A stretch of DNA of 64,000 bases. Source: a bacterium (GTDB taxonomy: Bacteria > Bacillota > Clostridia > Lachnospirales > Lachnospiraceae). This document shows positions 38,265 through 63,702 of the stretch, in pieces. Position 1 is the stretch's first letter; each line of letters opens with the position of its first letter. The translations under genes were made by a program, and so were the position numbers. The notes under the pieces were generated by a model, which did no database searches, was not told where the DNA came from, and saw only the letters and a list, made by a program, of their open reading frames with translations. The stretch spans positions 62,001 through 126,000 of the forward strand of contig JAQYCU010000024.1 of assembly GCA_028724545.1 (NCBI GenBank). Direction: 5' to 3'.

Positions 38265-38546
38265 TAGAAAGCGTTGATTAGAAATAGTAAGCATTTGAAA
38301 ATCACAGAGAGAAGCTGGATGGTGCGAAGCTTTGATGGGAGGATGCTGAACCAGTCTATGAGTTGTAAGATGAAAGCACAGATTTGTTAGGAACAGGTAT
38401 TTCTGTGAAGAAATCTTATCGGCAGCCTCCGTTATCATAGGCAGATAAGTGATAGGCTTATAGTGAGAGCAGACATAGTCTGAAGTTAGGTGGTAACACG
38501 GAGAAATTCGCCCTAAACCGTTTATTCGGTTTAGGGTTTTTATTTT
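38265..38546 (+). ncRNA. T-box leader (proline) controlling proS
   Basis: The leader has the conserved T-box AGGTGGTAACACGG at 38488-38501, which pairs with the uncharged tRNA acceptor end. An intrinsic terminator follows. A likely specifier is CCA (proline) at 38351-38353 in the context GCTGAACCAGTC, matching the downstream prolyl-tRNA synthetase. Exact Stem I limits are estimated. Confidence 0.85.
38511..38546 (+). terminator. T-box terminator hairpin
   Basis: Perfect 10-bp stem (38511-38520 with 38527-38536), 6-base loop, and a T-rich run to 38546. It should compete with an antiterminator containing the T-box sequence. Confidence 0.85.
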
Positions 38547-62893: not shown

Positions 62894-63160
62894 ATGAGGT
62901 TATGCGAACTTCGGGAAAAAGAAGTAATTAATATTTGTGATGGGGAACGTCTGGGAAATGTGTGCGATATCGATTTTGAGGTGAAAACAGGGAGAATCTG
63001 CGCACTCATCATTCCCGGACCATGCAAAATATTTGGTATACTGGGACGGGACCACGAATATATTATCCCGTATTGCGATGTGCAACGGATAGGAACAGAT
63101 GTGATTCTTGTGGAAGTAGACGCAGAAAAATGTCTTCATAAATGCAACTGGGGAGAGTGA
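62894..63160 (+). CDS. YlmC/YmxH family PRC-barrel sporulation protein
   Basis: An 88-residue protein: MRLCELREKEVINICDGERL then GNVCDIDFEVKTGRICALII, followed by YIIPYCDVQRIGTDVILVEV. This is the PRC-barrel-like YlmC/YmxH family, which accompanies sporulation sigma genes in Firmicutes; its molecular role is not established. AGGAG before 62894 sets the start over an ATG at 62861. It is the last gene of the sporulation cluster. Confidence 0.82.
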   Translation: MRLCELREKEVINICDGERLGNVCDIDFEVKTGRICALIIPGPCKIFGILGRDHEYIIPYCDVQRIGTDVILVEVDAEKCLHKCNWGE

Positions 63161-63171
63161 AAATATTGTCT

Positions 63172-63316
63172 CTGCCAGCACAGTCTTCCTATTTTAACAA
63201 GGGCACGCTCTCGCTGCGCAAACTACGCAGCAGTACATAGTATCCTAAAAAACAGGATACAAGTACTGGCGAGTTTGTAAGCACCCTTTCATAGAATAGG
63301 AAGACTGTGCTGGCAG
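63172..63316. repeat. 145-base structured inverted repeat element
   Basis: The ends are perfect 22-base inverted repeats (63172-63193 and 63295-63316). Inside are a 6-bp stem with 7-base loop (63213-63218 with 63226-63231) and a stem made of AGTAC/GTACT (63232-63236 with 63263-63267) enclosing a 7-bp stem (63240-63246 with 63254-63260). The whole can fold as a branched RNA or cruciform. Nothing in it codes. It may be a MITE-like or REP-like element, or a structured RNA. Confidence 0.75.
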
Positions 63317-63560
63317 GCAATTTCTATTGTGGTTCGCTGGAAAAGTTTCAAGTCTACACTTTTGGCAAAACAGCCGGTTAACAGATATTGGTGTATAGTA
63401 GAAAGTAATTACAGAGAAGAATATTCTAGAGCAGCCAATTTGTAAATGGGCTGTGATGCAACCGGGGTTCCTGAAAGCAACTGTAAAAAAACACTGGTGC
63501 TTAGTTGGCGTATTTTGCCAACTTATGCACCACTGTGTTTTTTTCCAAGCGAGAGCGTGC
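63203..63560. repeat. Inverted 13-base repeat pair flanking the spacer
   Basis: GCACGCTCTCGCT at 63203-63215 recurs as its exact reverse complement at 63548-63560. Seven further bases (TTCCTAT) match close by on the outer side of each copy, at different distances, suggesting two diverged copies of one longer sequence. Confidence 0.6.
63485..63544. terminator. Strong bidirectional hairpin upstream of nrdR
   Basis: A-run, then a long nearly paired stem with a 7-bp apical part (63503-63509 with 63517-63523) and a 6-bp lower part (63495-63500 with 63527-63532), then a T-run of eight. Works on either strand. Confidence 0.8.
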
Positions 63561-63702
63561 TGCTATAGGAAATCTGTTTTATCACATGCCCCTTAAAAAC
63601 AGCTGTAGCGTAAACAATCCCTTCTTCGCAGTTAACACTTGCATTGTCTGCAGGTAACGTGATATATTTACTATCAGAATAAGATGAAGGCACGACAGGC
63701 AT
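63523..63702 (-). pseudogene. Possible small-protein relic on the minus strand
   Basis: From an ATG at 63702 the frame reads 59 residues, including YITLPADNASVNCEEG then IVYATAVFKGHVIKQ, ending inside the terminator hairpin. There is no ribosome site, and the frame continues open upstream as antisense of nrdR. The part around GIVYATAVFKGHVI matches a decayed block at about 11778-11826, which hints that this was once a real sequence family. Not recognised; coding status is uncertain. Confidence 0.3.

Follow-up and report, generated by a model that had tools for sequence, protein, structure and literature searches.

What is the tightly folded stretch of 145 bp that separates two genes near the end of the window (the whole 64,000-nucleotide stretch of DNA analysed here), and how did it come to be there? 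It is non-coding, begins 12 nt after the stop codon of one gene (ending at 63160) and precedes the start of the next (63731); judged from their protein sequences, we take these neighbours to be a ylmC-like gene and nrdR. The initial annotation had described a structured non-coding element with 22-base perfect inverted ends, and this was borne out. The 22 bases of each arm (63172-63193 and 63295-63316) pair without a mismatch, a repeat search extends them to 32 nt at 88%, and the fold energy of the element with 10-nt flanks is -81.6 kcal/mol, compared to -37.6 (sd 3.75) in shuffled sequences (z -11.73, 0 of 200 equal or better). The element (A), its parts and its neighbour (B) are laid out as follows:

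63172..63316, minus strand: element A, a foldback hairpin with its conserved core fold (R) on the minus strand
63172..63196: left outer arm of A (P1), which varies among copies and pairs with the right arm (22-copy arm alignment)
63292..63316: right outer arm of A (P1'), from the same 22-copy arm alignment
63202..63215, minus strand: P5 of A, conserved GGCACGCTCTCGCT, with the minus reading AGC-GAGA-GCGTGCC, a GC stem with a GNRA tetraloop that adjoins the inner end of P1
63317..63425: A-B spacer, which differs from copy to copy in both length and sequence
63426..63600, plus strand: element B, sister copy in reverse orientation with R on the plus strand, core match at 63463-63577

An inverted pair and its copies in the genome

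Element B starts ca. 110 bp downstream of A (fold z -4.76). When its reverse complement is aligned with A, both have the conserved string CACGCTCTCGCT, an ATA/AA internal loop and a hairpin arm, and B is therefore an oppositely oriented sister of A. The covariance model of the core matches A at contig C24:125186-125301 on the minus strand (window 63186-63301, 106.6 bits) and, with a training set that excluded B, finds B on the opposite strand (C24:125463-125577, plus, E 8.6e-19). The initial annotation, which saw no other copy in the window by eye, had thus missed a diverged relative at ca. 63426-63600.

The genome to which the window belongs (G000, 2.27 Mb in 75 contigs) contains many more. 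BLAST with A gave 49 matches (40 of 55 candidates scored), the stretch downstream of A, i.e., the B region, gave 58, and the core model gave 77 at E<=0.001 (132 of 501 candidates scored), 42 of them of type A and 34 of type B, the latter read on the other strand. As many as 23 of the 34 B copies have an A within 700 bp, where ca. 0.9 would be expected, and in all 23 pairs the R strands point apart. The same polarity was found in nine out of ten close pairs of other genomes, five of the nine coming from a single genome (G014). The best explanation for our locus is that A is one half of an inverted A-spacer-B pair of ca. 430 bp that was inserted between ylmC and nrdR. At two other loci of this genome (C33 and C68), A is nested inside B-type arms. 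Several spacers of the genome (63317-63425 and its homologues) contain, judged by eye, degenerate direct units of ca. 70 bp with CAGCCAATTTGTAAA-like starts. Divergent promoters in the spacer were considered and rejected, as promoters were not enriched in the 23 A-B spacers (5/23 and 7/23, against 6.15 and 7.07 in shuffled sequences).

The conserved core and a proposed renewal of the arms

The string AGC-GNRA-GCGTGCC is conserved on the reverse strand (R). From a 20-sequence alignment, the R fold is composed of P1 ending in GGCAY/GUGCC, P2, a CGY with a CU bulge, P3 (CGGURC/GYACCG), a UU/UAU internal loop, a variable P4, and P5, a GC stem with a GNRA loop. As a predicted structure, the core makes sense on this strand, opposite to the one read in the initial annotation, as a three-way junction with a GNRA tetraloop hairpin. 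In the core alignment 90.2% of the cells are paired, and changes on both sides of a pair number 145, compared to 51.3 in shuffled alignments (0 of 500) and at most 29 in slid versions; further pair types (50 vs. 50.5 shuffled) do not rise above the control. A covariance model (R1) applied to 100 loci gave 109 matches in 106 distinct rows, and all of the 105 with a full loop had GNRA, most of these loci having been preselected by a pattern that itself requires it. In the 12 rows without the search pattern, GNRA was found in 12 and so was a purine at loop position 3, with some residual bias since R1 itself is GNRA-trained. Five of these 12 rows had stem changes on both sides (GT/AC in three and AC/GT in two) and pairing was kept in all. 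The BLAST-found copies of the window genome, which are close kin, have the GNRA loop in 37 of the 39 A that could be parsed, from a total of 42, and in 32 of the 34 parsable B, from a total of 36.

The two strands are not equivalent in this core. Over the 106 rows the R strand carries 155 G-U pairs vs. 67 A-C, and the bias is concentrated in the three innermost pairs of P1 (G-U 70, A-C 0) and in one pair of P3 (19 to 0). In the same rows it is reversed in the five outer P1 pairs (G-U 7, A-C 27) and in one other P3 pair (0 to 11), and the long arms have no clear preference (G-U 279 vs. A-C 237 on the motif strand, summing own A, own B and other genomes). In other words, one strand is strongly constrained at the junction, a preference that disappears or is inverted beyond it. 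RNA-level selection would thus not span the whole hairpin, and we consider that version unsupported. We also rejected a single functional RNA on the strand of the initial annotation, where the loop would be TYNC and the inner P1 would carry A-C mismatches. The GNRA loop, the covariation and the strand-specific G-U pairs are RNA-like, so that the earlier suggestion of an RNA stands as regards the fold, fails as regards the strand, and would leave R as a putative RNA. However, ssDNA would be expected to give an excess of G-U over A-C too, and the likely situation is that R is used as a single strand, be it RNA or ssDNA. A known RNA family as the identity of the core was rejected: Rfam 15 had no match at the gathering cut-off in the window or in nine loci, and permissive scans (the window element and six loci) gave nothing on the core of A and, on B, only mir-338, STnc240 and YenS far below the cut-off. 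A scan for intrinsic terminators found none.

The outer arms behave very differently. Among 22 aligned A copies the core is near-invariant and the arms are far more diverged, and yet 96.5% of the arm cells are paired. Both sides have changed in 18 of the 25 pairs, few one-sided states are seen, and arm cells changed on both sides amount to 85 vs. 18.9 in shuffled alignments (0 of 500). This pattern and the missing strand bias suggest that the arms are copied one from the other. Such hairpin-templated copying (template switch) would be the main means by which the perfect, copy-specific arms stay complementary. A template switch of this kind has been proposed as the origin of compensated, perfectly paired stems in RNA hairpins (PMC8794818). 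The compensated stems in that account are like the arms of A, but what it describes is a mutation mechanism whereas A is an element, and the link is by analogy.

Ends, target duplications and distribution

Among 24 nrdR loci, 21 have ylmC and nrdR on one strand. The gap between both genes is 570 nt in the window, 68-256 nt in 19 of the 21 genomes (92 nt in G022, the one with the most similar NrdR) and 786 nt in G018. In the latter an R element of its own is found within the same gap (locus L087), which suggests that the gap is a repeated target. In G001, elements of ca. 213 bp have the ends TAGGTAATTGCGAAACTA and target duplications of 10-14 bp in 8 of the 10 copies with resolved ends (17 tried). 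In G005, elements of ca. 680 bp have the ends CACGGAAATCAATTTTCAG and target duplications of 7-10 bp, mostly 9, in eight out of nine (10 tried). In controls with mismatched flanks, no match longer than 6 was seen in 90 and none longer than 4 in 72. By eye, the ends of these two groups are unrelated, and the core is the same. The check for target duplications was thus positive in these two relatives, from which the evidence of ends and duplications comes, while for the window's own A-B composite neither was defined. The dispersed copies, the short gaps in relatives and the terminal inverted repeats with target duplications support the mobile (non-autonomous) element that had been one of the options of the initial annotation. 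The elements have no coding capacity and are dispersed in high copy, as are miniature elements of the MITE type; that they are structured, dispersed and were inserted in the past is a matter of observation.

A possible source of the ends was found in G001, in which an insertion sequence of 1.76 kb (717223-718979) has ends like those of the hairpin elements, with one or two mismatches. It lies in locus L324 (C5:716800-719400) and codes for a DUF772 transposase domain, the gene being split into two ORFs. The same genome has elements of 66-81 bp with the same ends and no core, which could be deletions rather than ancestors. The core sits at the apex of foldbacks that go from ca. 145 to 680 bp. 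At two G001 loci (L151 and L153) the apical P4 loop of the core contains a second palindrome of ca. 130 bp, so that one hairpin is nested in another.

With A as query, weak matches appeared in 5 of the 27 other genomes of the genus group and revealed the common GGCACGCTYNCGCT. This pattern is present in 20 of the 28 genus-group genomes (39 times in G000 and 32 in G001; the reversed control gave 0 in all 28) and in 60 of 250 genomes sampled from the family (control matches, 10 in all). The core model found matches in 25 of the 28 genomes of the genus group, 30 of 295 of the order and 11 of 391 of the class. Hence, the element is neither single-copy (77 model matches in its genome) nor unconserved, and it is not the species-specific palindromic repeat that had also been suggested. 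All the matches of the order and class searches fall in the family of the window, although weak or rare relatives elsewhere may have been missed, as at most 12 and 9 candidates per genome, respectively, were scored with strict filters. A longer core pattern was found in at least 108 stretches, and among the 80 loci listed most records are titled Lachnospiraceae, the others being Blautia, Clostridium, Ruminococcus, Butyribacter and unclassified MAGs, with a handful under other MAG names, Muribaculaceae among them. The sequence of A itself is lineage-specific, so that its exact subtype 26-mer had 0 matches in the genome-contig collection. A phage origin was rejected, as an exact-pattern scan of viral contigs with the core pattern gave 0 matches.

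What the tip might do

We think it somewhat probable that these statements hold jointly: the family consists of non-autonomous, MITE-like foldback elements of Lachnospiraceae, the R tip is a separate module that serves their spread, and the arms are template-copied. The elements would be moved in trans by the transposases of whichever insertion sequence gave their ends. The tip (P1, the three-way junction, the GNRA hairpin and the P2-P3-P4 arm) would be an independent module that ended up at the apex of unrelated palindromes. It would act in folded, single-stranded form, as RNA or ssDNA, and most likely aid the spread of the element itself by being recognised by a putative trans-acting factor. 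With modest confidence, we regard R as a candidate mobility signal rather than a regulator of host genes, because this better accounts for one fold on unrelated ends, for the nesting and for the fixed polarity of the pairs. More tentatively, R might be a new class of functional bacterial RNA or ssDNA fold, a mobile tip that invades the apices of the palindromes of unrelated transposons, in some genomes mostly spreads as pairs that point outward, and within a single family has reached tens of copies per genome.

The placement of the copies bears on a different and rather unlikely reading, in which R would be an RNA that regulates or insulates its neighbours in cis (a leader, a 3'-UTR stabiliser or a processing site), spread by transposition and kept for the benefit of the host. 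Copies are intergenic in 49 clusters of the window genome, where the flanking genes are in tandem the motif strand of A follows their direction 19 to 7 (p 0.029), and 15 of 20 copies in G001 are 19-35 nt from a start codon; a core that is near-invariant while arms differ and spacers look unalike (by eye) would also be expected of a regulator. However, within tandem genes of other genomes R is mostly antisense (25, vs. 11 sense, among 54 chosen matches of which 12 overlap an ORF of at least 80 aa), and the preferred orientation differs between genomes, 14 to 5 one way in G001 and 1 to 7, the opposite way, in G014. Besides, as A and B here have R on opposite strands, every site has one of the two in antisense.

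Still less probable is that these are ordinary MITEs, the core being the mere internal sequence of one old family that has been conserved through recent spread. The G001 copies, mostly 92-99% identical, and the MITE-like ends with target duplications would fit, but the same fold is found in elements with unrelated ends and, with changed stems, across many genera, and divergence in the window genome is much greater in the arms than in the core. The least likely alternative is a DNA-level device that stabilises long palindromes (blocking apex extrusion or cutting) or a recombination or replication site, since the position at the apex, the outer arms free of strand bias and the stability that mini-hairpins of the d(GCGNRAGC) type have in DNA too would agree with it, but it leaves unexplained the purine at loop position 3 in the 12 pattern-free rows and the G-U bias of the inner P1.

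Bacterial MITEs such as Correia, ERIC, RUP and QMITE2 are described as short, non-coding, intergenic and of high copy number (PMC10969869). As portrayed there, they resemble the R family in their inverted ends, target duplications and strong fold, and in the transposase in trans on which the R elements too would depend, and differ in that here the conserved part is the folded centre, common to elements with unrelated ends, and that copies in the window genome are arranged as R-divergent pairs. The GC clusters of yeast mitochondria are also palindromic selfish repeats with constrained structure and modules that merge and shuffle, but they are organellar and much shorter (GC42 is 42 nt), and the portion of that account used here names no three-way junction or GNRA tip (PMC4478555). 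Mitochondrial double-hairpin elements are likewise mobile palindromic repeats and likewise organellar. REP/BIME and REPIN are high-copy extragenic palindromes in inverted pairs, but REP units have 20-40 bp and are not known to have a multi-helix core (PMC3733652, PMC3116915); with 145 bp, our element is a misfit in size for this class, which is marked by a GTAG tag and a RAYT transposase.

No description of the R family was found among the papers that our literature searches brought up. A catalogue of candidate RNAs comprises 3161 unnamed models, 250 of them palindromic (PMC8040213), and may include this family as one of them. Most bacterial palindromic repeats have been left as anonymous MITEs, and here one precise, GNRA-looped multi-helix fold recurs on unrelated ends across a major gut family, which lets one ask about the persistence of hairpin repeats, the factors that read them and the renewal of their perfect arms. 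The core model can be used on any Lachnospiraceae genome, where it would annotate dozens of insertions adjoining the starts and ends of genes. Elsewhere in the window, a T-box leader (Rfam RF00230, 111.7 bits) is found at 38265-38518 on the plus strand.
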